A DNA stretch of 23,885 bases from a virus. Shown in pieces: positions 853 through 22,419 of the stretch; position 1 is the first letter of the stretch; each line of letters opens with the position of its first letter. The notes below the pieces were generated by a model that was not told where the DNA came from, made no database searches, and saw only the letters and a list, made by a program, of their open reading frames with translations. The position numbers and the translations under genes were made by a program. Location: the IMG/VR virus record IMGVR_UViG_3300034104_003060, positions 1 to 23,885 of that record. The stretch is one strand, 5' to 3'.

Positions 853-874
853 ATATTTTTCCTTCTGTTAGTAA

Positions 875-883
875 TGATAAATA
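875..883 (-). promoter_or_regulatory. TATTTAT motif, putative phage promoter before gp41
   Basis: TATTTATCA on the minus strand, 22 nt before the gp41 start, in the 40-base gap after the 147-residue gene. The same core precedes six other genes in the window. The promoter role is inferred from position and recurrence only. Confidence 0.4.
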
Positions 884-892
884 CTACTACTT

Positions 893-1336: not shown

Positions 1337-1340
1337 TTTT

Positions 1341-4369: not shown

Positions 4370-4373
4370 ATAT

Positions 4374-5036
4374 TTAATTTTTTATTAAAAATTCAGAAGT
4401 TGAGGTATTTTTACCGTGAATATACCAAATTATATTTTCTGTATTATCAACTTCTGCAATCTTACAGTTATTACACCACATATCTCTCCACATATTATCT
4501 TCAAAACCATAAATTGATTTTATATCTTTAATCAAATTAAGAGCTTTAAGATTAAATGCAAAAGTTGCCGGTATTTTAAAATCACAACCTTCTGGGTTTG
4601 CACCCAAATTGTGATAAACCCCACGCCTCATTAAACTACCATTTAACTGATATTTCATTCTTGATGATAAAACATCAACCTCATTATTATCAAAATAATC
4701 AACTATTGTTTTAATATAATCTTTTTTATAAATGTCATCATCATCAATCTTTACAAAAATATCATATGTTTCATAATCTTTAACCGACATTATAGCTTTC
4801 ATATGATTTACTTGTTGATGTTGATTTAATGAAAAGATAAATGAATTTTTATCGGTTTTCAAATCATCAATCAATATTTTAAAATCTCCGTGACGATTAA
4901 GTTCTCTTTGGTCTAAAGTTATGTTAATTGAATGAAAAATATTTTCATAGCTTTGTGTTGCAATATCTTGTACACAACCTCTTAACATTTTATATCTTTT
5001 ATAACTTGGTGTAAAACACAATACTTTTTTGTACAT
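4374..5036 (-). CDS. Family 2-like (GT-A fold) glycosyltransferase
   Basis: A 220-residue predicted sugar transferase. The N-terminus VLCFTPSYKR (5-14) is the typical first strand and nucleotide-binding loop of GT-A enzymes. The metal and nucleotide-sugar binding DxD-type motif is KIDDDD (96-101). A later FED segment (178-180) in IYGFEDNMWRDMW fits the position of the acceptor-side catalytic acid, and WYIHGKN (204-210) resembles the C-terminal His metal ligand seen in some relatives. There is no membrane anchor, so it should act in the cytoplasm. It sits between gene 32 and uvsX, close to a cytosine methyltransferase, which raises the possibility that the acceptor is a modified DNA base; a host glycan or a virion protein is equally possible. 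Donor and acceptor are unknown. Confidence 0.78.
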   Translation of the reverse strand: MYKKVLCFTPSYKRYKMLRGCVQDIATQSYENIFHSINITLDQRELNRHGDFKILIDDLKTDKNSFIFSLNQHQQVNHMKAIMSVKDYETYDIFVKIDDDDIYKKDYIKTIVDYFDNNEVDVLSSRMKYQLNGSLMRRGVYHNLGANPEGCDFKIPATFAFNLKALNLIKDIKSIYGFEDNMWRDMWCNNCKIAEVDNTENIIWYIHGKNTSTSEFLIKN

Positions 5037-5055
5037 AAATGAAATATAATAAAAA

Positions 5056-5084
5056 TCATAAGGTAAGAAAATCCTACCTTATGA
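5056..5084 (-). terminator. Rho-independent terminator after gp32 (bidirectional form)
   Basis: A perfect 10-bp stem (TCATAAGGTA with TACCTTATGA) and a 9-nt loop. On the minus strand it is followed by a TTTTTATTA tract; a T-tract is also present on the other side. It starts 13 bases after the gp32 stop, so it should end or reduce gp32 transcripts before the glycosyltransferase and recombination genes. Confidence 0.85.
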
Positions 5085-5097
5085 CTTTTTTAATAAA

Positions 5098-5964
5098 TTA
5101 AAATGGTAATTCTTCATCAATATCATCATCAGCTTGTGGATCTTCTACTTTTGTTTCAGTTTTTGATTTTCCACCACCAATTGAAATTTCTTCTTCAGAT
5201 GTATTACTATAGATGTATTTTCCAGCATCAGTATCCCATCTTGGTGTTTCACCACGAGCAATAGCTTCAAGATATTCAGTAGGTTTTTTAGAATATACAT
5301 CTTCCCAAGTAAGTTCGTCTTCTAACCAAGATGTCATTGTTTCTTCATCTTCGTGAACCGGACACGGGTCATCGTACATTACTGTTTGAATTACAGTATA
5401 AAAAGCTCCTTTTGGTGTTTTTGCTTTTGTTAATTCAAGGATAAGGTCTCTTCCTTTCTCACCGTCAGCAATATCACCTTTTGCCTTATAGATAGGAATA
5501 ATTTTATCAAAAATTCCTTCTTGTTTGTAATTGTGTTTGAATCTCCAGAATTTAGGTCCATCTTGTTCGTTTTCACGGTCAATTACTTTAACAATATAAA
5601 ACTTACGAGGTTTGTATTGTTTTGCTAATTCTTTGTCAGATTCTTTACCAGTTGACATAAGAACATCATAAACTTCACTTAACGGTGAACGTTCGTTGTC
5701 ATTTTTTCCTGGGTCATAAAATTTCTGCCATTTTCCGTCCACATTAATTTCGTGGAACCATACCTCTTTAAAAGGTGAAGATCCGTCTGGAGTTGGTAAA
5801 ATACGGATTTTCTTTTGTGCTTGCTTTTCATTGTCTTTAAGTATCGCAGCAAAATACTTTTTCATTCTGTCCTCTTGGGACATTTTTGATCCGGATGTGT
5901 AATCTCCAGATTTTGAGTTCTCATACTGTGAGAGAACCGCGTCTAAAACATTGTTTGTCGCCAT
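5098..5964 (-). CDS. 32: Single-stranded DNA-binding protein, T4 gp32-like
   Basis: A 288-residue protein that coats single-stranded DNA during replication, recombination and repair. The core resembles gp32: KKIRILPTPDG (51-61), the FHEINVDGKW block (70-79), SPLSE...STGKESDKELAKQ (93-116), FYIVKVIDR followed by WRFKHNYKQEGIFDKI (about 122-155). The N-terminal LAST-like region is basic and helical. The C-terminal tail is acidic and ends DDDIDEELPF. The start chosen is the ATG at 5962-5964 (MATNNV). An ATG 75 bases upstream in the same frame lies before the predicted promoter and encodes an unlikely Tyr/Cys-rich leader. The zinc-binding cysteines of T4 gp32 are absent; Cys201 is the only cysteine. 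The leader is A-rich without a Shine-Dalgarno sequence. Its own promoter and terminator suggest separate, strong expression. Confidence 0.92.
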   Translation of the reverse strand: MATNNVLDAVLSQYENSKSGDYTSGSKMSQEDRMKKYFAAILKDNEKQAQKKIRILPTPDGSSPFKEVWFHEINVDGKWQKFYDPGKNDNERSPLSEVYDVLMSTGKESDKELAKQYKPRKFYIVKVIDRENEQDGPKFWRFKHNYKQEGIFDKIIPIYKAKGDIADGEKGRDLILELTKAKTPKGAFYTVIQTVMYDDPCPVHEDEETMTSWLEDELTWEDVYSKKPTEYLEAIARGETPRWDTDAGKYIYSNTSEEEISIGGGKSKTETKVEDPQADDDIDEELPF

Positions 5965-5997
5965 TTTTATATTTGTTTTTAAAAGTTTACAATAGAA

Positions 5998-6026
5998 AAT
6001 ATAAGTTAAATTTGTGTCGCAGTCAA
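5998..6026 (-). promoter_or_regulatory. Sigma70-like promoter for gene 32
   Basis: On the minus strand TTGACT, a 17-base spacer, then TATATT (5998-6003). The spacing is ideal for a housekeeping sigma factor, and the -10 region continues as TATATTTTC, close to the TAnnTTTG box of Bacteroidota. Predicted transcription would start about 25-30 bases before the ATG at 5964. It lies just downstream of the terminator of the preceding gene. The assignment is from sequence alone. Confidence 0.7.
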
Positions 6027-6038
6027 TATAGTAAAACA

Positions 6039-6065
6039 TTTAAGGTCGAAAAAATCGACCTTAAA
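6039..6065 (-). terminator. Rho-independent terminator at the end of the structural module
   Basis: A perfect 11-bp stem (TTTAAGGTCGA with TCGACCTTAAA) with a 5-nt A loop, beginning just after the stop of the 219-residue gene. On the minus strand a TGTTTTAC tract follows; the opposite side carries TTTTATTTT. It separates the tail genes from the gene 32 transcription unit. Confidence 0.8.
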
Positions 6066-6067
6066 TT

Positions 6068-6727
6068 TTATTTTCCAAAATCTTCATCATTGTCCCAAAC
6101 ATTAAATGAATCTTCAATTTCGTTTGGTGAGTATTCTTCAACATCATCTGTTGTTAATACATATTCATTTTTACCAGTTTTCTCCATCTCGTCTTGTTTG
6201 TCGGCAAAGAAATCTGATAATTTTTGTTTAAATGGTCCAGAATCTAAACTTCTTAATTCTAATTTTTCTTGAGCTGTTTTTGGTCTATATTTTTCAACCT
6301 TTTGTTCAAGTGAATTAAGTGAAGATACAATATTGTCCATTTCTTTTAATTTGTCTTCCAAACCTTGAATTTGTTTGAACAGGTTATCAAAGTATTCTTC
6401 TTGTTTAGTTTCAATATTTTTTTGAGAATTTACTAAATCCGTAATATCTAATTCTTCTGACTCCTCATCTTCTTTTCCAACTTCTTCAACATCAGGATCT
6501 GTTGCTGTATCTATTGGTGTTGGTCCCGCAGCAGCCGCATCTGGAGCTGGAGCTGGAGCACCACCTGGAGGAGGAGGAACATCACCACCTGGAGGAGGAG
6601 GAACATCACCACCTAGAGGAGGAGGAACATCACCACCTGGAGGAGGGGGAACTTCTTGTTCATTTATGTATCTATTAATATTTCTATATCTAGAAATTTC
6701 ATCTAATATTTTTTGTTCGATGCTCAT
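6068..6727 (-). CDS. Acidic protein with PPPPGGDV repeats and coiled coil, unknown function
   Basis: A 219-residue protein not recognised as a named family. Residues 1-24 are a polar helix (SRYRNINRYINEQ). Residues 26-56 are four copies of an eight-residue VPPPPGGD unit, one with Leu for Pro, followed by an Ala/Pro linker (57-75). Residues 78-95 are very acidic, about 97-150 are heptad-like and predict a coiled coil (KQIQGLEDKLKEMDNIVSS), and the C-terminus is again acidic. The modular layout fits an elongated virion or assembly-scaffold component, and it is the last gene of the structural block, but its role is not known. The start two bases before the upstream stop and the terminator right after the stop define the gene well. 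Confidence 0.8.
   Translation of the reverse strand: MSIEQKILDEISRYRNINRYINEQEVPPPPGGDVPPPLGGDVPPPPGGDVPPPPGGAPAPAPDAAAAGPTPIDTATDPDVEEVGKEDEESEELDITDLVNSQKNIETKQEEYFDNLFKQIQGLEDKLKEMDNIVSSLNSLEQKVEKYRPKTAQEKLELRSLDSGPFKQKLSDFFADKQDEMEKTGKNEYVLTTDDVEEYSPNEIEDSFNVWDNDEDFGK
6560..6652 (-). repeat. Tandem 24-bp repeat encoding VPPPPGGD units
   Basis: Nearly four copies of a 24-base unit that reads accacctggaggaggagg plus aacatc on the plus strand. Differences are few (one cctagagga, one gaggggga), so the copies are recent and probably vary in number by slippage. Confidence 0.9.
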
Positions 6728-6993: not shown

Positions 6994-9900
6994 TTATGTT
7001 ACTGATTTATAAATGTCAAATGCTTTTGAGAATTTCTCTTCAAGTCGTTTTATATTATCATCACCTAATTCTTTATAAACATTATTAGGTTGTTCTATCG
7101 GCCAATTTAACACATACACTTCAACATATTTAGATACTGTACCATCTTTTAGTTTAGTTGATTTACCAGCAAATCTACTAATAAAGAAATCAATAAATTT
7201 ATCTAAACTATCAAAAGATGCTAGTGGTATATTGGTTATATTCTCCCCTTTATTTACACAAAAATATTTAGAATTAAAATAAAGATTTCCGGCTGTTGCA
7301 TAATTTTCAGAAATAGCTATTGTTGTGTAATTGTTTTCGTAAGCTGAGAACCCGGTAGAAGTCCCTGAATCTGCATACATTGTACTAAAAATAAATAAAG
7401 CAAACTCGGTCAAACTTTGTTCTGATATTGTTGGGAACTTTGTTTTTAATTTATCTAAAATCATTTTTTTAACTTGAGAAAAAGTTGCTGATTGTGTTTT
7501 TGGTGCATCAACAGTCGTGTATGCTTTATATGATTGATATAATTTGTCTGAACAATTTTGTTCTTTTGATATACTTTCTTGTCCACCAAAAACATTATCT
7601 AAAACAATACTTTTTTGTTTTAAAACATTTTCTGGTGATTGTGTTACTTGTTTGTTTTTTTCTTCAATTTTTTCTTGTATTGTTTTAAGAATTTTTACAC
7701 TTAGAGACTGGATAAATGATTCAATTTTTGGTAAAGCATAAAATGGTTGTCTTGTTCCTTCAAATGTTGTGTCAAATCCATTTTCAGTTATTGTGTGACT
7801 AACACTTGTAATTAAATATGGTCCACTAAACATTGGTACATTTCTCAAATTAAAATACATCATAGGTTGAATAAGTGCGTTACCCATCATATCAACACTA
7901 CAACCATAGCTTCTGTTTTTATAGACATTGTACAACGAATTATTTTGTGTTGATGTTGTTCTGTTTTTATCAATATTTGACATTTGATTTAACACTTCCA
8001 ACGATTCCGCTGTAGGTTTTCCTGCTGTTTGGGAAACATCAAATTGTTTAAAAATTTGTTGATTTTGTCTACCAATATCAACATTGAAACCAACAACTCT
8101 ATTTGATTTGTCCCAATCTTTTTTATCTTGTAAACTTTGAACTAAAGGGTTATCACTAGCTCTTCTCAAATCAAAAGCATCATTTCTAAACCTATAATCA
8201 ATATTGTTTTTCATATCCAAATGTTCACTATTTTTGTTTGCATAATAACAAACAAGTTTTGGTGAAGTTTCTCTATAATCAAGATTTAAAAAGGTACCAA
8301 AAAGAGTATTAGCAAATTCTAGTGTACCCTCATTTTTTGGTATTGGGTTTTTGGTCGCATCCTGTACATTGTAAAAATTTGCAAAAGAAGGTAGGTTGAA
8401 GTATACAAAATTATTTTCTACCAAAATTGTGTTTACAATATCTAAAAAACTATTTTTATATTGTCTTTTGTCAATTAATTCTTTTACTTTAAAAATATCA
8501 ATTATAATCTTTTGACCAACGTCTCTACTGGCTCTATCAAACAATAGAACATCTTCAAATAATGTTTTTGTTTTTAAGTCATATCCGGCAATCCAAGTAT
8601 CATTGATTGATTTAAAAAGTTCCCAAAGTTCATCTCTAGTTTGATCTCCAATTAATTCAGATTTTTTACCTCCATCTGTTGGGACAACATCAATATTTTT
8701 TATTCCACCTCTTACAGCTGGCATCATAGTATTTATAACATTAACCAAGTAAAGTAAAGAATCGTCAAAATATTGATTCATTATTTGATAAAATTTTGCA
8801 GAATTTAAAGTGTTGTCTTTTAATTTTTCTGTTGCATAGATTTTTATAATTGGTGTAAAATCAATAACATTTTTTTCATTAAACTGAACATTCATATCAA
8901 TAAAAAAATCTGTTATATATGAACCATTATCAGAATATTTTAATTGAGGAATTTCAGAAAAACCAACATACGTCTCAAGAGCTTGCCAAGCCGATGGGTA
9001 AATTGCTTTAGATTGTGCTAGAGTTATACTTCCACCACTAAAAGGTAGAAACCCAGGTGTGTCTTGATTGTAACCTTTATATTGAATTGGGTCAACAATA
9101 AATTGATTAGAGAAAGTTAAAAATAATCTTCTATCAAAATTAGTTGGGTTACCATTTCTTAAAATAACATTATAATTTAAAAATTTATCTAGAACTGAAG
9201 TGAAATTTTCTTTTTGTAACGTTGTCAATTCTGTTATTACACTATCTGGTACAGTTTGTGATGGTTTTTTAATTTTCATTAAAGACCTCATCAAAAATTG
9301 GAAGTTTAACGCTTCGTTTTCTGATGGTAATTTTCCTGTGATTTGTAATCTAACAGCATCATTTTCACCACTATCTAATGTAGATTTGAAATCATAACAA
9401 GACCTACTAAAATTTAAAAATTCTGTTTCAAAAATGTCTAGAGTTGACTTATCAAATGTACTAAACATTTCGTCAATTTTGGTATAATTATTACTATCAC
9501 CATCTAGTAAAAAGTTTTGTTGGGTTCTTTGTTCGTTTAATATTTTTTTAAAATATTGTTCTGGATTTGTTTTTACTAAATTATCGTGATTAAAATATCC
9601 ATAATGTGGTGATAACCAAAATGACCTAACAGATCCATTATACATTGCTGTATTTCCACTCAATTCTATTTTTGACAATCCGGCAGGATTAAAACATTCA
9701 GATGCTATTTGATTAACATTTGAACCAAAAGACGGTAGCAAAAATACATTAGTTTTTGTTACGGTTGTACTAGCTACTGACCAAGTTTTAAGATTTAAAC
9801 TTCTTCCTAAATTATTTAAATCAAAACCAGGTGACTTAATTATTTTTGAACCATCAGACGGAATCAAATAAAGTTTACCATCGTCAATTAAATTTTGTAT

Positions 9901-12900
9901 ATCAGATGATTTTATTCCTGTTTTTGGTGCACTTGGTACAACAAATATAGTTCCAGATGGTACAACTTGAGATAAGTTGATTGTGTAGGTACCAGTACTA
10001 CCAGTAGTTCCTGAAATTTGATTTAAAATTGTTGTTCCACTTAAAATATTATTTCCAAATATAACTTGCCCTGGTGCTAAAAAATTATCAGAAATTGTAT
10101 TAACGGTAAGTGTTGTTCCACTTACTGAACAAGTTCCGTTTAATTGTGTTCCACCACTAAATAATTTTAAACCTTGGTAAAATACATTAAAATCATCTAC
10201 AATTTTTGGAAAAAATCCTAAATTAATGTTTGTTGTATATGCGGTACTATTTAATTGTGAATCTTGTTCTAAAACAATTTCATAAGGATTTGTATATGCT
10301 GTAACAGAATAATTTCTGGTAGTTGCGGAATTTATTGGGTCATAGTTTGATTTATAATCAATGTTATTCCAAATATCATTTAAAATATCAGTACCAGTTG
10401 ATTTCCATTCTTTATATCTATGCCATATTGACCCATATTTTAAAATCCAAGAATATGGTAATTTATGTACACCACCAAATTTTTTAATAGTTGCAAGAAT
10501 GTAACTTAAATCATTAGTAGCATTATATGTTTTATATTTTTCTTTTAATGTTGATAATGGTAAACTATTTAAAAACAAATAAGCAGCAACTTTATATGGT
10601 GATTCATCCGAAACATTAAATCTAAAATTGTTTACACCTTTTTGTATTGCGTTAACAAAATATGGTGTGTTGAACATAGATGTTGTTTGGTTGAATACTA
10701 ATGAGCCACTATAATTTATATAGTTTAAATTACCTTCAGTAACAAACTGATCCTCAATTTTTCTGTTTGTATAAAAAATCTTTAGATTAGTTAAATCTAA
10801 AGGTTGATTCATTGTGTTAGTTTTAAAATTAAAATTTGTAAATGGTCTTTTAGTGTCATTTGTGTCTTCAGTTAAAAAATTTGTGATTGTTTTGTAGTCA
10901 GTATTAAATAACATAACATCACTTGTTTTATAAGCATCAACCGCATTTGATAGGGCTAAACCATCCGCTAAATATTTTTTTACATAATCCAAATCTACAA
11001 TTGGGTATATGTCACCAAATTCAAAAATGTTTGATGAAGATGTGTTAGAGAGATATGTATTTAACTTACTTTCATTTGCCAAACTTATATCTGGTTTGGT
11101 CACATCACTTTGTAAAATTGATTGATTTCTTAAAGTTGCTGGACTATTAACTTCATTTTTAAGATATGGAGTTGTAAATTCTCCTCTTACAAATTTTTGC
11201 CAACTCTCACCAAATCCTTGATTAGATATATGACGAAGAAATGCTAAAAAATTACTTCCAGTTAAATTATATTCTTTTAATTTTTTTGATAAAAAAGGAT
11301 TGTTTTCACCTAGAGCTTTTAATATGTCTTCTTTTTCGGCTTCAGATTCAACAGTGTAAACACCATAATCATAACCAGATTTTCTATTTAATCTGGAATA
11401 ATAAGTGTTAATAATAATTCTTTCATATATTTCATAAAAAAACTTAGCTTCTTCAACATTTTGGTAAACCTCATTTGAAACGGGGAAATCTATTGCATTT
11501 AAACTTATTCGGTTTGGTTTTAAAGCAATATCCCCTTGGAAATCCGGTTCTGGTTCTGGTGATTCTCTTTCCGTATAACCTTTAATAAATTCTTCAACAA
11601 ACTGGACTTCCGGCCAAATTTCTGGTATAAAAGCTTTATATTGTGATGCTAAAGCTATATCTCCTGGATATTTTATTTCAAATTTTTCTTCTTTATCTGT
11701 ACCTTGTTTTTCAACTATCAATTGTGGCCACGGATATACCGGTGTATCATCATTGATAACTTCAGTGTAATCAACACTTGGTGCTGTTATGTTTTTATTA
11801 AATATTGCGGCCTTTCTTGTCTTGTCGTTTCTTACATCCCAAGCATCAGTATGGACATCATCTAATAATCTTAAGAAAGCTTCGGCCTGTGCAAAAAATA
11901 CGGCCATCACATTTCTTATTGTTGGGACAAATCCTATACCATTATTTTTATCTGACAACTTTTTTTGGATTGACGCAGTAATTGCTTCCTCAATATTTTT
12001 TTGTGTTGTTTTTACTTGTTTACTCATTTCATTGATTAAATCAATAAATGATTTGGAACCTTCAAACCAATACCCATATAACCCTTCGGCTGTTAAAGTA
12101 GATAGTTCAGTTTTAATTTTTTCTTTAAACTCATCAATTACAGTATCACCACTTATTTTTTTTCCGGGGTTTCTTGCTATATATGTTTCATTTAAATTTA
12201 AATCATTTTCAAATAAAGATTTAACATCTTTATATTTAAGAAATGTATCATATGTTATTGTATTTGTAATTTTAGAAGGTACTTCTTTTCCATCAACAAC
12301 ATATTTACCATTTTCACCATATACCAAGTTTTCTGAAAAAATTTTATTATATAATGGTATAATTTTATCTTTTAATTCATTTTCAGCACTAACCTTGGCT
12401 GTTGCATCAAGTTCTTTTTTGAATATGTAAATTTTTGTTTTTTCTTCATTATTTAAAACAAATGGATTATCAAAATCTAAATATTTTTTTGCCCACCCAG
12501 AAGTTGAGTAGTATACATCTTTTTGATATTCAACTAAAGAATTTGCATAATTTCCACTATCAGTTAGTGGTCCAAGATTTTCTTTACTAAATTTTTCTAA
12601 AATATCTTTAATAAATGTGTCTAATCTTGTTTTTAATTGTGTTATTGTTATTTCCGGAAAATCATCGGCAATCAATCCTTTTGATTTGTATACCGCATAA
12701 AGTTCTTTCATTTTTGCATAACCCTTACTTGTGATTTTTTCTGTGACTGGTGTTTTGGAATTTTGATTATTATTTCCAGAATTGTCAGCAATTTTTAAAG
12801 TTGTGTTATACATATGTGGGACCGCTAACATTCCACCCCAATTTACATAAGACATTATTGTATATTTGTATCCATAAAACTTTAACTTAATTCTAAAATT

Positions 12901-13566
12901 GTGTGTTGATGGATCAAAACTAGATGTGAAACTTTGTAACATTATTGGAAATCTTACAGCTTTTCCATAATAACCTTTAAGTGTTAAAAAGAAAATTGGA
13001 TATGGTAAATTAAAAAAAGCGGCGTATGGTGAACTGTCACCACCTTCAAATAATGCTCTACCTTTAACATCTTCCAAATCTATATCGATTACAGGTTGGA
13101 AAGATGTGTTAATTGTATATTTAATTGATGTAATACCTAAAAGACCATTGTCGGTTGCACCGGGATTTCCATTTGAGTATAAACTTTGTGTTATGTAAAA
13201 GTCCCCGGATTTATTTGGGTTTTCAACAGATTTTAATTTAGGTTGATTAACTCCTTCACCTTTTAATGTATTTTTTCCGGTTAGTTCATCGGTATAGGCA
13301 TTATCTAAAAAAGTTTTTTGTCCTGGATTTAAAAAGTTAATCTTAGCCACAGAAATTGTCCTAATGGCATCGTTTTGTGCTGTACCCAAAGCTAATTTTG
13401 TTCTAGGTAAAACATTACATTCCAAGTTAGCATAGAATACTAAATTTTCTTGTTTGACTAATCTTTCTTGCGCTTTTCCCTCATTATCTATTATTTTATT
13501 TGGGTCAATTATTGAAATATTGTCATAATCAAATTCTACTAAAATATTTTCACCATTATCTACCAT
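6994..13566 (-). CDS. Giant baseplate/tail-hub-like structural protein (2190 aa)
   Basis: The largest gene in the window. The N-terminal region (about 130-255) is a beta-rich block including DIDLEDVKGRALFEGG and FFLTLKGYYGKAVRFPIML, of the sort seen in baseplate and tube-associated proteins. Residues 1143-1213 form a separate Gly/Thr/Ser-rich beta module (SGTTLTVNTISD, then ISGTTGSTGTYTINLSQ) like the add-on domains common in phage virion proteins. Near residues 1890-1942, a stretch ending SHTITENGFDTTFEGTRQPF resembles the last domain of gp27/gpD-type hub proteins. The final 150 residues (about 2040-2190) resemble a glucosaminidase-like cell-wall domain, but with Asp2066 where a catalytic Glu is expected. 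The frame is uninterrupted, and it overlaps the gp53-like gene by 11 bases. The hub assignment is inference from fold-like patterns and context; a virion structural role is more certain. Confidence 0.72.
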   Translation of the reverse strand: MVDNGENILVEFDYDNISIIDPNKIIDNEGKAQERLVKQENLVFYANLECNVLPRTKLALGTAQNDAIRTISVAKINFLNPGQKTFLDNAYTDELTGKNTLKGEGVNQPKLKSVENPNKSGDFYITQSLYSNGNPGATDNGLLGITSIKYTINTSFQPVIDIDLEDVKGRALFEGGDSSPYAAFFNLPYPIFFLTLKGYYGKAVRFPIMLQSFTSSFDPSTHNFRIKLKFYGYKYTIMSYVNWGGMLAVPHMYNTTLKIADNSGNNNQNSKTPVTEKITSKGYAKMKELYAVYKSKGLIADDFPEITITQLKTRLDTFIKDILEKFSKENLGPLTDSGNYANSLVEYQKDVYYSTSGWAKKYLDFDNPFVLNNEEKTKIYIFKKELDATAKVSAENELKDKIIPLYNKIFSENLVYGENGKYVVDGKEVPSKITNTITYDTFLKYKDVKSLFENDLNLNETYIARNPGKKISGDTVIDEFKEKIKTELSTLTAEGLYGYWFEGSKSFIDLINEMSKQVKTTQKNIEEAITASIQKKLSDKNNGIGFVPTIRNVMAVFFAQAEAFLRLLDDVHTDAWDVRNDKTRKAAIFNKNITAPSVDYTEVINDDTPVYPWPQLIVEKQGTDKEEKFEIKYPGDIALASQYKAFIPEIWPEVQFVEEFIKGYTERESPEPEPDFQGDIALKPNRISLNAIDFPVSNEVYQNVEEAKFFYEIYERIIINTYYSRLNRKSGYDYGVYTVESEAEKEDILKALGENNPFLSKKLKEYNLTGSNFLAFLRHISNQGFGESWQKFVRGEFTTPYLKNEVNSPATLRNQSILQSDVTKPDISLANESKLNTYLSNTSSSNIFEFGDIYPIVDLDYVKKYLADGLALSNAVDAYKTSDVMLFNTDYKTITNFLTEDTNDTKRPFTNFNFKTNTMNQPLDLTNLKIFYTNRKIEDQFVTEGNLNYINYSGSLVFNQTTSMFNTPYFVNAIQKGVNNFRFNVSDESPYKVAAYLFLNSLPLSTLKEKYKTYNATNDLSYILATIKKFGGVHKLPYSWILKYGSIWHRYKEWKSTGTDILNDIWNNIDYKSNYDPINSATTRNYSVTAYTNPYEIVLEQDSQLNSTAYTTNINLGFFPKIVDDFNVFYQGLKLFSGGTQLNGTCSVSGTTLTVNTISDNFLAPGQVIFGNNILSGTTILNQISGTTGSTGTYTINLSQVVPSGTIFVVPSAPKTGIKSSDIQNLIDDGKLYLIPSDGSKIIKSPGFDLNNLGRSLNLKTWSVASTTVTKTNVFLLPSFGSNVNQIASECFNPAGLSKIELSGNTAMYNGSVRSFWLSPHYGYFNHDNLVKTNPEQYFKKILNEQRTQQNFLLDGDSNNYTKIDEMFSTFDKSTLDIFETEFLNFSRSCYDFKSTLDSGENDAVRLQITGKLPSENEALNFQFLMRSLMKIKKPSQTVPDSVITELTTLQKENFTSVLDKFLNYNVILRNGNPTNFDRRLFLTFSNQFIVDPIQYKGYNQDTPGFLPFSGGSITLAQSKAIYPSAWQALETYVGFSEIPQLKYSDNGSYITDFFIDMNVQFNEKNVIDFTPIIKIYATEKLKDNTLNSAKFYQIMNQYFDDSLLYLVNVINTMMPAVRGGIKNIDVVPTDGGKKSELIGDQTRDELWELFKSINDTWIAGYDLKTKTLFEDVLLFDRASRDVGQKIIIDIFKVKELIDKRQYKNSFLDIVNTILVENNFVYFNLPSFANFYNVQDATKNPIPKNEGTLEFANTLFGTFLNLDYRETSPKLVCYYANKNSEHLDMKNNIDYRFRNDAFDLRRASDNPLVQSLQDKKDWDKSNRVVGFNVDIGRQNQQIFKQFDVSQTAGKPTAESLEVLNQMSNIDKNRTTSTQNNSLYNVYKNRSYGCSVDMMGNALIQPMMYFNLRNVPMFSGPYLITSVSHTITENGFDTTFEGTRQPFYALPKIESFIQSLSVKILKTIQEKIEEKNKQVTQSPENVLKQKSIVLDNVFGGQESISKEQNCSDKLYQSYKAYTTVDAPKTQSATFSQVKKMILDKLKTKFPTISEQSLTEFALFIFSTMYADSGTSTGFSAYENNYTTIAISENYATAGNLYFNSKYFCVNKGENITNIPLASFDSLDKFIDFFISRFAGKSTKLKDGTVSKYVEVYVLNWPIEQPNNVYKELGDDNIKRLEEKFSKAFDIYKSVT

Positions 13567-13882
13567 AATAAAAGAAATGATTGTCTAGTTCGTTTTTATA
13601 ATCTTGTAAAGAAGCAATTAGTGGAAATGGGATTGTTAAGATAGACCCATCAGGTATATTTGGTTCTAAACCTGACATTTTTGGGTTTGCCTGTAATATC
13701 AACCACCCAAATAATGGTGAACCATAAAATTGTTGAGATATTTTATCAAGTCTAGATTGACCAACTTTATAAATATAATTCTTATCAGTACCTTTACTAG
13801 GTAAATTAATATACGGAACAACGGTTTGTTGTCCATTTATTAAAAAATTACTATATCTATTATAATACTGTAATCCAGACAT
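13556..13882 (-). CDS. 53: Baseplate wedge protein, gp53-like with LysM fold
   Basis: A 108-residue protein with a LysM-like domain at residues 38-87: YKVGQSRLDKIS, then FYGSPLFGWLILQANP, then IPDGSILTIPFP. This pattern is typical of gp53-type baseplate wedge proteins and of the LysM adaptor proteins of contractile injection systems, where the fold joins wedge and hub parts rather than cutting peptidoglycan. The N-terminus (YYNRYSNFLINGQQ) matches the short extension these proteins usually carry. It starts two bases after the stop of the OmpA-containing baseplate gene and overlaps the hub-like gene, so the three are probably translated together. T4 gp53 is longer (about 196 residues), so this is a minimal version. 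Confidence 0.8.
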   Translation of the reverse strand: MSGLQYYNRYSNFLINGQQTVVPYINLPSKGTDKNYIYKVGQSRLDKISQQFYGSPLFGWLILQANPKMSGLEPNIPDGSILTIPFPLIASLQDYKNELDNHFFYYGR

Positions 13883-13884
13883 CC

Positions 13885-16800
13885 TTAATTAAATTTTACT
13901 TTTTTATTAAATGTTTTATTAAAATTTCCATTTGTATTACTGTATACACTTTTCATAATACTCTTTTTTTCGTTTTTATCAACAGTTACTTCTGTAGTAT
14001 ATGCTAACTTGGTCTCTACAGTTTCTAATTCAAACTTGTCGTAAATTAAATATTCTGGACTTGCTTGGTATTCATCAAATTTTTTAATTTCAGCATCAAA
14101 CTCTTCTTTATATAATTTCTTTAAATCTTCCAAAGTTTTTTTAATTTCATTTTCTAAGTATGTATTTAATTTTACTTTTTCCAAGTTTAATAATTCATTT
14201 GAAAAAATTTGATATTTTTCTTCATTTACAAATGTATCGGCATACATCATATAAAATCTACAGTTTTCTGTTCCCGTTAATTTTTCTGAAATAGGATAAA
14301 ATGATGTTTCATCTTTTATATAGTTTTCAGAAAAAGAAATTTCAGTTGTAATTAATAATTGTTCAAATTTATTTAAGGATTCACCAACTTTATTTTTATA
14401 TAAATCGACCATTTTAGAAAAATCAGAAACACCATCAATTTCAGTTAGTTCATATACTTTTACATCACCAGTATCTAGCTTTACACCATCAACACCATTT
14501 TTAATTCCGGTTGGTGATATTGTGTCATATAGAATTGCGTCAACTTTTTTAAGTGTCTGAACATATTCTTCTTGATATTTTGTCATTTCATTTATTGGTT
14601 CAATAACAAATTGATTTAAATCATTTTGTTTAGATTGTGTCAACGATTTTAATTTATCTCTAACTTCTCTAATTGCTGAATTTGGAATGTTTGGAACTAA
14701 TACTAACTTTGACATAATAGGATCTTTATCATCTTTAATATCTCCTATTACATTATTTGTTAAAGATTGTATTCTTTGTTCAACAAATTCCGGTTTACCA
14801 TAAATTTTTGTATTAATACCAGAGTTATCACTATAATCAAATATTTTTCCATCGACATAATTTTTTTCATAACCAACTAATTGTAATATTCCATAGTTAG
14901 TTGTATTTTGAATTGTTCTTAATTGATTGTTAATTGTTTTAAAATATTTGTTAGTATTATCTGATAATTCTTTAAATAATGCAATATATTCAATTTCTCC
15001 ACTTTGGATATTTCCATTATCTTCTAAAATTGTTGTAAGTATATTTCCAATAGCATCACCACCTTTTTGAGGTATTTGATTATCTACAGAGTTTGTTGAA
15101 ACTGTATTTTGTCTTTTTAATATTTGTTCAACAACATATTTGTCCCTAGCTGAAACATCTTCGGTTGGCGTTGCTCTTTCATCATAAATTTCTGTATTTG
15201 CATAATAATTAAACGAAAGTGCGTTTTGAAGTTGTTCAACTGGTTCTTTAAGTCCCATACCACCGATAATATTAAATGCCATTGTAACATTTGCAATCAT
15301 AGGTTGTATTCCAATTCCTTCTGGGTTTAAATCATATAATAATGGTTCATATGAAATATCTAAACTTGTTGGTACAATTTTACTATGATAAAAATCTCCA
15401 ACCCTTAATACTAATATTGGTGGTGCACCAAAAGATGTGTTTAGCGCATCATTATATTTTGGTCTTCCATCTGTTCCAATAACTGGTATTGTTTGACCCG
15501 GTCTCATACACTGATTTAAAAATGTTAATCTAGCATTCAAACCTTCCGGTGTCATCGAATGGAAAGCTGGACTAAAATATTTAATTTTCTCTTTAAATGT
15601 GTCGTATACCATAGGATTTGTTTCTTTAATCACTTGGAAATAGTCGCATTCAGAAAATAATTGTCTAAGAACTTTTTTAGAAATTCCTTCTTTTATTTTT
15701 TGTTGTATATCAACACTTGGTATTGGTTTTATTATTGTTAGTGTTTCACCAGTAATTGGTGGCGGTGGAGGTGTTGTTGTTGTAGTTGTTGTAATTGGTG
15801 GTGGTGGTGGAATTTCTGCTGATATTGCTTTTAAAATAACTCGTCTACAAGCCATTGCTGGTAACGAATTAACCACAGCATTAGCTGTTGCTTTGTTATT
15901 TGTTGTTTCTCTTGGTAAAACATTACAATTTACGGAATCAAAATTACCACCATTTTCCCCTTTTGGAATTGTTTCACCTTCACCTTTAGGTTCAATTTTA
16001 GTATAAAGAATTTGTTTTCCAATGTAATCTTTGTAAGATGTTCCATCAGAAAATTTTTGTTTTTCAATCCATTGTTGTACAGCACTAATTCTTCTTTGAG
16101 ATAATCTAACATTGTAATCCTCAGAAGCTACTGCTGATGCGGAACCTTGTAAGCTTATTTTAACAATTCCTTTTCTTTTAATAATAACTTCTTCCATTCC
16201 TTCCAAAAACTCCTTTGTCATTTTTGCGTAGTTTCCTTTAATAACATCATTGAAGAAGGTTGGTATTAAATCTTTATTATATGTTTTTTTGTCCGTTCCG
16301 CTTCCAACATAAACAGAAGTTGGTGCATTATTTATTGTTGGTTGGTAAAATTTATCTTCATATTCTTTAATATAAAATTCAAAATCAGTTCTTGCTGAAG
16401 TTGATGGTTCTCCAAACGGTATATCATTATAAAAATAAAACCCTACGCCGGCAAAATTTTTGAACGGGTCTATAAAGGTATCACTAGCACTAGTGTTTTC
16501 ATTACCACCAGTATTTTGTGTTTCAACTTTACTTTCTGGATCCTTAACCGGATTCTCGGCTGGAATATTTTTTAATACTTCACCATATTCCTCTTCAGTT
16601 AATCTTGGGTTATTTAAAATTTCTTGATATGTAAATAAATCTTTAGTTGGTATTGTATTAAATTTTATTCCCAATTCATATATATCATATTTCATACATC
16701 CAGCAAAAAATGAATCTACAATAGAGTCCAATCTTTCTTTTGGTATATTTGCTAGTTGTTTTTCAATAATTGTGTTTAATGATGATGGATTATCAACTAA

Positions 16801-18849
16801 AATTTTCCATTTTAAAGTACCACTTCTTGATGTGTTTTTATATGTATATATTGGTTCAGGTCTTCCAAGAAAACTTGTTGCGTTAAAATCTGGTTTTGAG
16901 TTATCACTAAATGATAAATCATAAGGTGGGAACCACATTATTCTACCACCATTTGGTCCTTTTTCACAAACTGGTAATTCATCATAAGTAAACCCTGGTC
17001 TATCAGATGTTCTCCAAGCAAGATTTTCTATTGAGAACATATATTTTTTAACTTTATTATCGACAATGTTTGTTGAACCAGGATTTCTTAATGGTGCTAT
17101 ATTTAAATTATACGTATTATCAAACACAGAATAACTAAACCCTCTACCGGCAGTTGTAATACCATCTGTTTTTTGTAAGTCAGCATATGTAAAATAAGGC
17201 GTATCTTTTTGGAATATACGACAATATTCAATACCGGCCTCTGTACCATCAGATTGATTTTTATATGAAAGTACTTGTGAACCTTTTGTTAATTCTTTAT
17301 AACCATCATTAAAAACTTTAGAAACTTGATTTATTGCGTTTCCAACATGTTTTAACCTAGCTTCACCTTGTAGATTATCTGCGGCTTCAATTAATCTTTG
17401 AGTTTGGTCTAATATTGAACCTTCTTTAAATGTAATATTTGTTGATAAATTTTTATTATAGTTAGCCTCAACAATATTAAATTCATTATCTAGGGATGTT
17501 GGTGCGCCACCAGGTGCAACGTGAAACCCAGCATTATCTTTATACTTTGGTGATGTCCAAACAAATTCACCGTCTATTGTTCCTGAATTTGTATATGATT
17601 TTGCTTTTAAACCAAAATTAATTTGAGTTTGATTTCCTTCATATAAAATACCAAGTTCTGATGGACCATAAACAAGTGTGTCAACTTGTTTTCCATCTGG
17701 TGCTACCGGTAATTGATTTGGTGGTGATTCAACTTTTGACGGGTCAACTGTTGAACTACCGACGTAATAACCACCTGTATTTGGTTTGTCTGGATTTAAT
17801 AAATTAGAAATGCCGGTTGTAATAGTTTGGATAATTCCTCTATTATAATCCGGTCTATATTTGTTATAATCTAGTGTTGAAAAAAGAGCTGATCTTTGTC
17901 CATTACCAGTATTTGCCACAAATATTTCAGATGGATTTCTATATTTGTTTAATATTGGTCCTAAGAATCCGCCGGTTAAATTATTTACAACATTAAGTGC
18001 TCCTTCGGCATTTGAATTTTTTGGTTCTGTATTATCAAAATAATCACCAGGAATAAATGACGCTGGGAAATAAGTTCCACTTAAACGATTAGCAAAACTA
18101 ACAGCTGCTGGAATTGGGTTTTCTGGAACTGTAATTCTCCAATTTTTTTCAACTAAAGGTTGTTTACCGGTTGCAATAAGTGATGCTGAAAAAGGATCCG
18201 AAAGTGAACTTAGATTAACTCTACCAATAGTTAATAATTCAACTTCTCTTGCAATTCTATCTTCAAAATATCCTTTTAATTGTGTTGCACCAATTTTTGC
18301 AATATATGAATCTTGCGATAAACTACCGCCACTACCACCAGGGTTTGAGCTAAATAATATGTCGTATGGACTATAAAAAGACGGGACAAATGTTGGTGGA
18401 TCCCAATATGGTAAATATAATTTTTGTGTTGCAACAATATCGGTTATTGTTGCCAAACTTTTAAAACCACCTTCTGGCCCATAATTATTTTGTATATATG
18501 CAGCGTCAATAAAAAATTCATTAGCCAAATCAATAACAGTATCATTTGGGTCGTAAGGACCTTTGTTTGATTCAACTGGAAGTGGTGGACCCGCTAAATT
18601 TAATGGTTTAGGAAAACCACCTTCTGGACCATATTCATTTAATGGATATAAATTATTTGCTTGATTGTTTGTACTTACTAAATCATTAGGTGAATCAATT
18701 ACATTAGAAACTGTCAAATTTGTCTCGTAGTTAATATTACTTGTTTGTGGTGAAAAACTTCCGGGTACATTATAAGGTGCTAAATTTCTAGCAATTAATG
18801 TATTTCTAAATGAAGATGATGAAGCAAATGACAAAAAACTTTCTGACAT
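13885..18849 (-). CDS. Giant baseplate protein with OmpA-like peptidoglycan-binding domain (1654 aa)
   Basis: A 1654-residue putative virion protein. The N-terminus is low in charge and contains two YGPEGGF copies (73-79, 123-129). Residues 634-690 (GGRIMWFPPY ... FLGRPEPIYTYKNTSR) and 1140-1226 (PILVLRVGDFYHSKIV ... GIGIQPMIANVTM ... IIGG) both resemble the tube/LysM-adaptor domains of contractile injection systems. Between them, 801-1009 is an OmpA/MotB-like domain: GVGFYFYNDIP opening, VKISLQGSASAVASEDYN, LSQRR (916-920), KGEGETIP, and CRRVIL (1001-1006). A rigid linker of five Pro, Ile, seven Thr and five Pro follows (1014-1031). The C-terminal third is Lys/Glu-rich and probably helical. 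Position before gp53 and after the tape measure supports a baseplate role. The OmpA call is strong; the flanking domain calls are tentative. Confidence 0.75.
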   Translation of the reverse strand: MSESFLSFASSSSFRNTLIARNLAPYNVPGSFSPQTSNINYETNLTVSNVIDSPNDLVSTNNQANNLYPLNEYGPEGGFPKPLNLAGPPLPVESNKGPYDPNDTVIDLANEFFIDAAYIQNNYGPEGGFKSLATITDIVATQKLYLPYWDPPTFVPSFYSPYDILFSSNPGGSGGSLSQDSYIAKIGATQLKGYFEDRIAREVELLTIGRVNLSSLSDPFSASLIATGKQPLVEKNWRITVPENPIPAAVSFANRLSGTYFPASFIPGDYFDNTEPKNSNAEGALNVVNNLTGGFLGPILNKYRNPSEIFVANTGNGQRSALFSTLDYNKYRPDYNRGIIQTITTGISNLLNPDKPNTGGYYVGSSTVDPSKVESPPNQLPVAPDGKQVDTLVYGPSELGILYEGNQTQINFGLKAKSYTNSGTIDGEFVWTSPKYKDNAGFHVAPGGAPTSLDNEFNIVEANYNKNLSTNITFKEGSILDQTQRLIEAADNLQGEARLKHVGNAINQVSKVFNDGYKELTKGSQVLSYKNQSDGTEAGIEYCRIFQKDTPYFTYADLQKTDGITTAGRGFSYSVFDNTYNLNIAPLRNPGSTNIVDNKVKKYMFSIENLAWRTSDRPGFTYDELPVCEKGPNGGRIMWFPPYDLSFSDNSKPDFNATSFLGRPEPIYTYKNTSRSGTLKWKILVDNPSSLNTIIEKQLANIPKERLDSIVDSFFAGCMKYDIYELGIKFNTIPTKDLFTYQEILNNPRLTEEEYGEVLKNIPAENPVKDPESKVETQNTGGNENTSASDTFIDPFKNFAGVGFYFYNDIPFGEPSTSARTDFEFYIKEYEDKFYQPTINNAPTSVYVGSGTDKKTYNKDLIPTFFNDVIKGNYAKMTKEFLEGMEEVIIKRKGIVKISLQGSASAVASEDYNVRLSQRRISAVQQWIEKQKFSDGTSYKDYIGKQILYTKIEPKGEGETIPKGENGGNFDSVNCNVLPRETTNNKATANAVVNSLPAMACRRVILKAISAEIPPPPPITTTTTTTPPPPPITGETLTIIKPIPSVDIQQKIKEGISKKVLRQLFSECDYFQVIKETNPMVYDTFKEKIKYFSPAFHSMTPEGLNARLTFLNQCMRPGQTIPVIGTDGRPKYNDALNTSFGAPPILVLRVGDFYHSKIVPTSLDISYEPLLYDLNPEGIGIQPMIANVTMAFNIIGGMGLKEPVEQLQNALSFNYYANTEIYDERATPTEDVSARDKYVVEQILKRQNTVSTNSVDNQIPQKGGDAIGNILTTILEDNGNIQSGEIEYIALFKELSDNTNKYFKTINNQLRTIQNTTNYGILQLVGYEKNYVDGKIFDYSDNSGINTKIYGKPEFVEQRIQSLTNNVIGDIKDDKDPIMSKLVLVPNIPNSAIREVRDKLKSLTQSKQNDLNQFVIEPINEMTKYQEEYVQTLKKVDAILYDTISPTGIKNGVDGVKLDTGDVKVYELTEIDGVSDFSKMVDLYKNKVGESLNKFEQLLITTEISFSENYIKDETSFYPISEKLTGTENCRFYMMYADTFVNEEKYQIFSNELLNLEKVKLNTYLENEIKKTLEDLKKLYKEEFDAEIKKFDEYQASPEYLIYDKFELETVETKLAYTTEVTVDKNEKKSIMKSVYSNTNGNFNKTFNKKVKFN

Positions 18850-18921: not shown

Positions 18922-20895
18922 CTATTTTGGTTTACTCAACATTAATCCACTATTTGGGTCAAATCCAAATAGTTTTACAACATTACTAGTATCACTAAAA
19001 TATTTTTCAATAGCTGAATTTACAACACTTGTGTCTAATGATGCCGTTTTTTCATCTGTTGTAATTTTTAAATCAACTTTTATTTCACTTTTTGCTGATA
19101 GTTCCATAGGTTTTTGTTCAGATGTTACAACATTTTGAACATTTGTTCCTTCGGGAGTAACATTTTCTAATGGTGTTACGTTTTCTTGATTAGTTCCACC
19201 TTCACCAACATTTGTTCCTGTATTTTTCCCAGTATCAGTTGTTTTAAATCTACCACCATAAATTTCTTCAATTACTTTATTACTTCCTTTCACAGTTTCA
19301 TTAACAATTGTTTGCATACTATTTTTAAACCCAGTCTCAACATTACCTAATGTAGTCACTAATTCTTTCATTTTTGTTGATCCTTCTTCAAACTTACCTT
19401 CAGCAAAAAGTAGAGCCATATCTTCAAATGGTTTTGTTAAGTCGTTCATTTGTTTACTTAAATTACCAAAATCACCCATATCACTTCTTGAGATTCCTTT
19501 AGGTATTTCTCTTTGTATTCCAGAAACAACATCATATGCTCTCATAACTGGGGCTGCCGTAGCTCCAGCATATGTTACTCTTTCTCCAACGGCTTTTTGT
19601 GCTTGTTCAATTCTTTTCAAAGTATCCAATTGGTCTATAGCAATTTCTTCCATACTTTTAGCACTCTCTTCTTCACTCAATTTAAGATTTTCAATATCTT
19701 CTGGTGTAAGTTGGTCAACTTCTTTTTCAATTGCTCGTCCTGTTTCGGCATCTTTAACGGTTATAACAGCTTTACCATCTTTCATTTGAGACATTGTAGC
19801 AATCATTTCTTTTGTTTGTTCATCACCAACAAAATCAGGCATTTTAATTTCTTGTAATTTTCTATCAAAATCGGCAGATTTTATTGCCATCTTTGAGAAC
19901 TCTTCGGCTGACATACCTAATTCTTTTGCAACCTCTCTCATCCTTCTTTTAGCTCCGGGCATAATTTCAAATTGACCCTTTTCATTTAATTGGACAAATT
20001 CTTTACTTAAATCAGTCATTGATTTCATAAGTTCATCCGGTCCGTTAAGTCCCATATCCATAAGTCGTAAAGGGTCTAACATTTCTGAATTTGCAACACC
20101 CATTCTTTGTAAACCTGCCGCCATTTCAATTGCGTTTTCAGGATCTAGTAATTTTTCTGACGTATCAAAAACAGTTCTCATATCAATACCTAACCTACTA
20201 GCTTGTGCTGCCATTTTCGTAAGTCCTGCAACTCCATTACTGAAATTGTACACATTTAATTTTTCTAAATTTCCACTTACAAATCCACTAACTTCTTTTA
20301 CATTTCCACCAACAGACCTTGTGTAATCAACAACTTCTTTCATTGTATCACCAACATCATAAATAGAAACACCAACATTTCTAAAATTTTCCGCTAATGT
20401 ATCAATTTCTAGACCAGTAACTTGACCAGTCGCGCCTAGTTCGGTTATTGCTTCAACACCAATACTTGCGGCACCACCAAGAGCCTTACCAATCTCGGTT
20501 ATTACTGTGGCAGGGTCTGTGTCTAAACCCATTTCTGTGAATGAAGGAATTGCCTCACCAATAACAGCTTTAAACTCACCCATTCTAGCTCTTGTTGTAC
20601 CAAAAGCACCCATAACTTTGGTACCTTGTTGGTCTAAAATTTCTAGAGCACCACCTATTTTATTGATAGAATCGGTCATTTGTTTTACATAACCGTCCAA
20701 TGTTTCACTAACATTAAATACTGAACCTTGGATTTCAGAAGTTTGTTCAGTAAGTTTACTTTCTGTCTTTTTTTTAAGTTCGTCTTGGAATGGTTTAAGT
20801 TTTTCACCTATATAGTCGTCAATATCTCTATCGGTGTATTGTGTACCATCAACAGAAATATTACTACCTCTTTTATATGAAAACTTTTTTGCCAT
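18922..20895 (-). CDS. Tail tape-measure-like protein (T4 gp29 position)
   Basis: A 657-residue, largely helical protein. In T4-type phages such a protein sets tail length and sits inside the tube (T4 gp29 has 590 residues). Residues 1-90 are charged and helical (KPFQDELKKKTESKLTEQ). Residues about 90-260 are small-residue-rich, with GKALGGAASIGVEAITELGATG and repeated Gly/Ala helices typical of tape measures. The middle is Met- and Glu-rich. A Thr/Asn/Gly-rich linker at about 550-595 precedes a compact C-terminal domain ending GFDPNSGLMLSKPK. There is no long transmembrane segment. Its place right after the gp26-like gene and frameshift extension matches the usual order of tail-assembly chaperone followed by tape measure. 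At the usual 1.5 angstrom per residue, the tail would be near 100 nm. Confidence 0.78.
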   Translation of the reverse strand: MAKKFSYKRGSNISVDGTQYTDRDIDDYIGEKLKPFQDELKKKTESKLTEQTSEIQGSVFNVSETLDGYVKQMTDSINKIGGALEILDQQGTKVMGAFGTTRARMGEFKAVIGEAIPSFTEMGLDTDPATVITEIGKALGGAASIGVEAITELGATGQVTGLEIDTLAENFRNVGVSIYDVGDTMKEVVDYTRSVGGNVKEVSGFVSGNLEKLNVYNFSNGVAGLTKMAAQASRLGIDMRTVFDTSEKLLDPENAIEMAAGLQRMGVANSEMLDPLRLMDMGLNGPDELMKSMTDLSKEFVQLNEKGQFEIMPGAKRRMREVAKELGMSAEEFSKMAIKSADFDRKLQEIKMPDFVGDEQTKEMIATMSQMKDGKAVITVKDAETGRAIEKEVDQLTPEDIENLKLSEEESAKSMEEIAIDQLDTLKRIEQAQKAVGERVTYAGATAAPVMRAYDVVSGIQREIPKGISRSDMGDFGNLSKQMNDLTKPFEDMALLFAEGKFEEGSTKMKELVTTLGNVETGFKNSMQTIVNETVKGSNKVIEEIYGGRFKTTDTGKNTGTNVGEGGTNQENVTPLENVTPEGTNVQNVVTSEQKPMELSAKSEIKVDLKITTDEKTASLDTSVVNSAIEKYFSDTSNVVKLFGFDPNSGLMLSKPK

Positions 20896-21930: not shown

Positions 21931-22419
21931 TTAGTAAACTAATATACATCTATCCATACGAATACTTGATGTAATTCCCGCAATTTTATCACTTGAATAA
22001 TCTAGGGACCCACCATCATATCCTGTTAAAAATGCACCTTCTAAAATCCATTTCTCAACAACAACACCGGTTGGGTCAAGCATTTCAAGGTCAACATTCT
22101 TTTTATATCCGGCAGCATAACCCATACGACCAGTTACAGATTCAGCACATAGACGAATCCATTCCATAACCGCTTGTGAAGCTGATGGACCAATTGGGTC
22201 TCTAAACTTAACCGAAATTTCTTCCCAGTTAAATCTACCAGCAACATAGGTTGAGGTGTTCAAAAATGGAATTTCTGTTGAAGCAATTTTCATTTTTGGT
22301 CTTGAGGTACTTTCTACATACCACTCATTTATTCCTAATGACGATGGAAATCTCAAAATCCATCTGTTCTCCCTTTTCGGTTCGTAAGGTATAGGCATTT
22401 TCATTAACAAATCAGCCAT
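21931..22419 (-). CDS. 19: Tail tube protein, T4 gp19-like
   Basis: A 162-residue protein almost the same length as T4 gp19 (163). It forms the hexameric rings of the inner tail tube. Family hallmarks are all visible: PKRENRWILRFP near the N-terminus, IPFLNTSTYVAGRFNWEEI (about 50-68), a DPIGPSASQ turn (about 74-82), the GRMGYAAGYKK segment (about 97-107), LDPTGVVVEKW, and the C-terminal GGSLDYSSDKI block. It is followed by a terminator and preceded by a TATTTATAA motif and an A-rich, Shine-Dalgarno-free leader of about 35 bases. That organisation suits a highly expressed late gene. Confidence 0.95.
   Translation of the reverse strand: MADLLMKMPIPYEPKRENRWILRFPSSLGINEWYVESTSRPKMKIASTEIPFLNTSTYVAGRFNWEEISVKFRDPIGPSASQAVMEWIRLCAESVTGRMGYAAGYKKNVDLEMLDPTGVVVEKWILEGAFLTGYDGGSLDYSSDKIAGITSSIRMDRCILVY

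Follow-up and report, generated by a model that had tools for sequence, protein, structure and literature searches.

Little is known, to our knowledge, of how a contractile tail keeps the end of its tube at the cell wall. At the locus described here, a relative of the OmpA-type module, which in bacteria holds the outer membrane to the cell wall, occurs inside a giant protein of a phage baseplate region. The window (the whole stretch of DNA analysed, 23,885 bases) is probably a fragment of an uncultured phage. Its tail genes are arranged in the order tube, T4_baseplate (gp26-like), tape-measure position, 1654-aa gene, LysM-like protein and hub, and the same order is found in Flavobacterium phage vB_FspM_immuto and Microcystis phage Mel-JY01. 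The genes that matter here are the following:

13885..18849, minus strand: gene of the 1654-aa protein, tail-tube-initiator-like with an inserted OmpA-fold module (open frame and gene order)
13556..13882, minus strand: neighbouring LysM-like small baseplate protein, 108 aa (PF05489 Phage_tail_X, E 0.0021, below cut-off; PHROG baseplate families, E 1.8e-4)
6994..13566, minus strand: neighbouring hub-position protein, 2190 aa (PHROG 52 tail protein, E 2.8e-6; position)
18922..20895, minus strand: 657-aa protein at the tape-measure position (by position; no PHROG match and no Pfam match above cut-off)
21931..22419, minus strand: tail tube protein, gp19-like (PHROG 4542, E 1.1e-23; 42% identity to the Microcystis phage tail tube)

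The 1654-aa gene sits between the tape-measure position and the LysM/hub genes, as expected of the tube initiator of a contractile tail. From this order, from weak fold matches and from parallels with known tube initiators, we infer that its product is the tail-tube initiator. OmpA (PF00691) was the sole Pfam family matched in this protein; LysM gave no Pfam match, remote cases being missed by Pfam, and no Pfam family was matched in the first 589 residues (17083-18849, minus strand), in which recurring YGPEGGF-like stretches were seen by eye. At the end of the hub protein, a sub-threshold Pfam line for a clostridial neurotoxin domain (E 0.031) was taken as chance.

An OmpA fold within a single tube domain

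The first-pass annotation had placed an OmpA-type domain at 15822-16449 on the minus strand (residues 801-1009), and its frame, strand and residue numbers are right, the stretch being stop-free and containing FYFYNDIP, NVRLSQRR, GEGE and CRRVIL. The presence of such a domain within the giant baseplate-region protein was borne out by Pfam, by the structural model, by VIA-align and by the Pfam matches of relatives. The Pfam OmpA profile scored 18.3 bits with the whole protein (E 0.0029) and 21.7 bits with the module alone (E 2.6e-4), both short of the curated cut-off of 27.2, and matched 45 of 60 relatives at E <= 0.01. Among seven wider phage relatives, three that carry the same insertion as the 1654-aa protein exceeded that cut-off (L353, 37.6 bits; L348, 30.6; L344, 28.3), one fell below it and three gave nothing. 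An AlphaFold model of residues 590-1260, built on an alignment of 60 sequences (mean pLDDT 60.5 overall; block means of 66-94 over the module, residues 790-1019), displayed the predicted OmpA core in the order beta-(insert)-alpha-beta-alpha-beta-(insert)-beta, with 120/120 residues aligned to A. baumannii OmpA 3td3 (Z 9.6, rmsd 2.6). In the VIA-align listing, 48 of 50 rows cover the module and correspond to OmpA/Pal/MotB-type structures, 3td3 being followed by PorE (9.5), 3td5 (9.4), Pal (8.9-9.3) and TagL (8.6). Foldseek alone yielded no match at E <= 0.001 for either this model or that of the pocket-less clade described below, and the best hit of a PDB sequence search, Pal at E 0.19, was not significant; the fold is claimed on the basis of VIA-align, applied to the candidates that Foldseek itself proposed, together with Pfam and the alignment. 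On the strength of the Pfam matches, the model and VIA-align, 15808-16455 (minus strand) is confirmed as an OmpA/Pal/MotB-fold module.

With the C-terminal domains of PF00691 (3td3/3td5, Pal, TagL, PorE; fold Z 8.6-9.6) the module shares the Asn, Leu and Arg pocket positions with their spacing and the C-terminal RRV strand. It differs by a Ser where those domains have Asp, by long insertions following the first and third strands, and by being embedded within a phage tube domain, whereas the PF00691 domain forms the C-terminus of an envelope protein. Its surroundings are divided as follows:

16750..17055, minus strand: N-terminal half of the tube-initiator domain, residues 599-700 (aligned by hhalign with the 40 domains that lack the insertion, E 1.2e-8; 0/40 column-shuffled decoys as good)
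15565..16749, minus strand: whole insertion, about residues 701-1095, with linker, OmpA-fold module, proline-rich linker and approach to the second half (absent in 40/40 immuto-type relatives)
15808..16455, minus strand: OmpA-fold module, residues 799-1014 (Pfam OmpA; AlphaFold model; VIA Z 9.6 to 3td3)
15130..15564, minus strand: C-terminal half of the tube-initiator domain, residues 1096-1240 (hhalign alone E 0.0013, 0/40 decoys as good; spliced with the N half, E 4.3e-10)

The module had been described as inserted between two tube-adaptor domains; the insertion stands, and the two domains turn out to be the two halves of one. After removal of the insert, the window-family profile aligned end to end, with its halves in order, with 40 uninterrupted domains (E 4.3e-10, score 69.1), as against scores of 23.1 for the best of 40 column-shuffled decoys and 13.3 for the reversed profile. 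By itself the C half matches modestly, and the module by itself gave no match to the same 40 domains (E 0.2). These are distinct immuto-type domains, five short ones (L182, L183, L184, L218 and L222) having been left out, and none of the 40 displays an insertion of more than 19 residues relative to immuto. Since the halves align in order with the uninterrupted immuto/Mel-JY01-type domain, the insert splits one tube domain rather than lying between two, and insertion of the OmpA-fold module in one tube-initiator domain is confirmed at the level of sequence profiles. On the model of the 1654-aa protein, VIA-align placed two tube-initiator-type structures, 6rao_G (AFP baseplate, Z 6.6) and 8kea_R (cyanophage A-1(L), Z 6.5), over the two halves on either side of the module, with modest values that are below the safe-match level. 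The immuto-type baseplate protein (vB_FspM_immuto gp035; Mel-JY01) has the homologous tube domain and the same gene order but lacks the insertion, and an OmpA fold was not found in it. By eye, a Microcystis phage homologue (L149:24062-30826) carries a long N-terminal part with about twenty near-repeats of some 60 residues.

Relatives of the query are numerous. IMG/VR scans yielded at least 556 stretches encoding them with the N half, at least 590 with L064 and at least 598 with L299, numbers that overlap and are not additive, and the best 80 of each scan were examined. A genome collection gave five loci, one in a single-cell genome of Prochlorococcus and four in metagenome assemblies labelled Paludibacteraceae (two), Bacteroidales and Mycoplasmatota; the labels are those of the assemblies and not proven hosts. 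No named phage with the same insert was found by tblastn among 50,697 records, the queries being the window protein (E 0.01), L064, an L020 module (E up to 10), L299 and L302. PHROG 7897, an unnamed family, was the only one to match the strand-helix segment of the module, weakly (E 0.0025), and reached E <= 0.001 in 6/60 relatives. In one relative, L365, the insertion site is occupied by a 113-residue linker of low complexity, and the OmpA module is absent.

Pocket and cysteines across the relatives

In the ligand pocket, the module keeps three of the four positions that contact diaminopimelate in TagL, and two cysteines stand out further on:

16090..16146, minus strand: pocket segment G902-SASAVASEDYNVRLSQR-R920, with Ser905 at the Asp position and Asn913, Leu916 and Arg920 kept (spacing 0/+8/+11/+15)
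15925..15927, minus strand: Cys975, invariant (126/126 distinct inserts)
15847..15849, minus strand: Cys1001, invariant within two positions on either side (Cys at 999-1003 in 126/126)

The loss of the Asp abolishes wall or mDAP binding in A. baumannii OmpA. According to the TagL report, the contacts in that protein are Asp486, Asn494, Leu497 and Arg501, whose spacing equals that of Ser905, Asn913, Leu916 and Arg920, and loss of Asn494, Leu497 or Arg501 singly has the same effect (PMC8253398), as has loss of Arg223 in PapS.

We followed these positions in three sets. Among 60 relatives, Ser905, Asn913 and Arg920 were each found in 59 and Leu916 in 58, and Asp in none. In a close set of 126 distinct inserts (out of 207 frames), position 905 was Ser in 106, Phe in 12, another residue in eight and Asp in none; Ser, Asn, Leu and Arg occurred all together in 99/126 and Arg920 in 107/126, one clade being without it, and ten of the 126 were missed by the module profile at E 1e-3. 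In a wide set the motif, often as GYASxQG....N..L...RA, was present in 61/64 inserts (counts from a profile iterated on the same set), with Ser (49), Thr (seven), Gly (three), Asn (one), a gap (one) and never Asp at the Asp position, and with Arg in 61/61, Leu in 57/61 and Ser/Thr in 56/61. The three inserts without the motif included one without any module. The ligand-binding Asp and Arg had been expected to persist, and their loss in all relatives had been named as evidence against an OmpA-type domain; Arg did persist (59/60, 107/126 and 61/61) and Asp did not (0/60, 0/126 and 0/61), so this joint loss was not observed. Given these counts for Asp, we do not file the module as a canonical diaminopimelate-binding OmpA domain. 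That Ser is usual and Asp never found, in the close and wide sets alike, indicates a change that is old and constant rather than random decay. Moreover, mean pairwise identity among the 60 relatives (gaps set aside) was 0.44 in the module, compared with 0.79 and 0.80 in the N and C halves, and the constancy of Arg and Ser in a module that drifts so fast points to selection on the pocket, as judged from these alignments.

Asn and/or Arg were missing in 25/126 close inserts. In a rapidly built tree of 80 rows, for which the tube halves were used without the insert, the pocket and pocket-less states need two changes and fall on two sides except for one stray row, L284. The model of one pocket-less insert, obtained with its own alignment of 24 pocket-less sequences only (pLDDT 91.4, pTM 0.89), matched OmpA-type structures, namely the flagellar LPHT-ring protein (Z 8.9), Pal (8.3) and OmpA (8.2). 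The pocket-less clade thus still models as an OmpA fold, and the Arg is not needed for the fold. Exactly two cysteines were found in 85/126 inserts, which, together with the invariance of the two listed above, makes a Cys975-Cys1001 disulfide possible in the virion protein. Since one clade has lost the pocket and retained the fold and the cysteine pair, a role exists that needs no pocket, probably one of packing.

Ser-type OmpA domains in bacteria

To see what the Ser form means we turned to bacterial OmpA loci. Of 25 loci aligned from two Bacteroidales-type assemblies, 23 have Asp and two have Ser, the latter within GYASPEG; 28 loci had been fetched, one of them being the phage insert itself, two being without an aligned stretch, and two pairs having the same stretch. 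One of the two Ser loci, L394, encodes an outer-membrane barrel (Pfam below cut-off) plus an OmpA domain of 56.9 bits, far above cut-off. The GYASPEG pattern occurred in 10/40 related genomes and in 0/40 of the reversed control, and the longer motif fitted 11 of the 12 GYASPEG loci fetched. Once the Asp position was masked, Ser-type windows (n=14, including two pairs from the same gene) received a median score of 42.5 from the phage profile and Asp-type windows (n=23) one of 24.6, the sequences being related and the windows cut in two ways. The Bacteroidales barrel-plus-OmpA proteins resemble the phage module in the Ser at the Asp position and the N..L...RA helix, and have an ASP[EQ]G run in common with some wide phage relatives; they differ in that the domain is a C-terminal module in an outer-membrane protein. 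The sequence likeness suggests that the phage module derives from, or has a common origin with, this Bacteroidales Ser-type subfamily. As the Ser form is also found in Bacteroidales outer-membrane anchor proteins, it need not mean that wall binding is absent; on this comparison, a protein expected to have the wall as its ligand can carry it. The idea that loss of the Asp simply rules out wall binding, which we had considered, is weakened by these Bacteroidales loci (2/25; GYASPEG in 10/40). We know of no wall-binding test of a Ser-type domain, and the GYASPEG motif was not found in the open-licence literature searched (no preprints). The Ser-type bacterial loci collected are L392, L394 and L411-L422.

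Wall contact, packing and other readings

The module could be a part that touches the cell wall, or a building block put to another use. The reading that we favour, while giving it slightly less than an even chance, is that of a putative wall-contact module, borne by the tail-tube initiator and serving in the packing of the baseplate as well. The protein would be the tube initiator of a T4-like contractile tail, forming a hexameric first ring with six copies per tail. A Ser-type OmpA/Pal/MotB-fold module would have entered it early in the history of a large phage lineage, at a point of the beta-barrel domain that lies, to judge from the profile alignment, after a strand and before the next helix. 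The module would lie outside the tube lumen and, in the resting virion, be packed between tube and wedges. Contraction would drive the tube end into the periplasm, where the Arg/Leu/Ser pocket would most likely contact peptidoglycan stem peptides and steady the tube end in the wall; in the clade that lost the pocket, fold and cysteine pair would serve packing. The retention of Arg920, Ser905 and Asn913 in 59/60 despite module drift, and the Ser form in Bacteroidales barrel-plus-OmpA proteins that the masked phage profile scored above Asp-type ones, argue for wall contact. Against it weigh the absence of Asp at the diaminopimelate site (0/126, 0/61), the loss of binding that follows removal of a single pocket residue in known members, the 25/126 close inserts without Asn and/or Arg together with L365, which has no module, the burial of the tube initiator in the resting baseplate, and the weakness of the tube-initiator fold matches (Z 6.6 and 6.5). 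In addition, the comparable LysM module of the Mu gp43 tube initiator, in a helix-rich domain that contacts the wedges, is described as structural (PMC11915804).

Such LysM proteins are a precedent for the alternative that the module is purely structural, an OmpA fold taken on for packing or docking where hub and wedge adjoin, as LysM was in Mu-type tube initiators and in gp16/gp53-like proteins. Here the pocket, with Arg kept and Asp gone, would hold a carboxylate without an ammonium, for example a protein C-terminus or an acidic side chain of a neighbouring phage protein. We regard this as a serious possibility, somewhat more doubtful than wall contact. Milano, A-1(L) and R2 pyocin are also named as having LysM-bearing tube initiators in the source cited for Mu (PMC11915804), and in A-1(L) the hub-wedge gap is described as filled by gp16, a protein that has a LysM domain, so that precedents exist in both the tube initiators and the hub-wedge connectors of Mu and A-1(L). 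The likeness lies in a tube initiator bearing a fold known from peptidoglycan binding; the difference is that LysM stands in an appended helix-rich domain of Mu gp43 (PMC11915804), whereas here the OmpA fold is inserted in the barrel. The loss of Asp everywhere (0/126, 0/61), the pocket-less clade with its fold, insertion site and cysteine pair retained, and the LysM-like protein encoded by the next gene also speak for a structural module. However, Arg, Leu and Ser/Thr are kept across wide divergence, as expected of an unchanging ligand and not of a co-evolving protein partner, and outer-membrane anchors of bacteria have this Ser form too. The two readings are close and both may hold; we give wall contact a small lead, since a small-ligand pocket that stays constant while the module around it changes fast is in keeping with a ligand that does not change.

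The proposal of the first-pass annotation, a canonical diaminopimelate anchor acting through an Asp-Arg pair, accords with the fold and with three of the four contacting positions at equal spacing, but the Asp is absent from all 126 close and 61 wide inserts, and we consider it improbable. Host mimicry, in which the module would imitate an OmpA protein of the host outer membrane so as to bind the partners of that protein, on the cell surface or in the periplasm, is a shade less probable still: the closest bacterial motif is indeed that of the Bacteroidales barrel-plus-OmpA subfamily, but a tube initiator is not in a receptor-binding position and the insert is present in many divergent lineages. 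Chance resemblance with no real domain behind it, for which the sub-cut-off Pfam score of the window protein alone and the Foldseek result could be invoked, has a negligible probability in view of the relatives above the Pfam cut-off and of two models from separate alignments that both match OmpA structures.

A peptidoglycan-type fold in a tube initiator is already known in the form of LysM. An OmpA-fold insert at that place was not described in the open-licence literature searched (no preprints), and with respect to that literature the OmpA fold at the tube initiator, its Ser form and its breadth are new. A second cell-wall fold besides LysM has thus been recruited to the same place in the injection machine, and a wall-type fold built into the tube initiator and common to hundreds of environmental phage contigs is a testable part, with a natural control built in, one clade having the pocket and one lacking it. 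It also draws attention to the Ser-type OmpA domains of Bacteroidales. In its fullest form our proposal, which we advance tentatively and with a little less assurance than wall contact as such, would be that contractile phages of a very large and so far unrecognised lineage carry in their tube initiator a predicted Ser-type wall-binding OmpA module acquired from the outer-membrane anchors of bacteria, that with it the tube end holds on to the victim's peptidoglycan during injection, and that one clade later came to use the module as a structural part only.

Beyond the tail genes, positions 1-6039 (minus strand) hold replication-type genes. They encode a gp32-like protein (5098-6039, Pfam E 4e-9), a glycosyltransferase (4374-5036, Pfam E 2.4e-7), a RecA-like protein (3359-4369, Pfam E 1.7e-4, below cut-off) and, by eye, a DNA cytosine methyltransferase (2350-3372), all on the minus strand. 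The product of 6068-6727, on the same strand, is a small acidic protein in which a PPPPGGDV repeat stretch was seen by eye close to the start.
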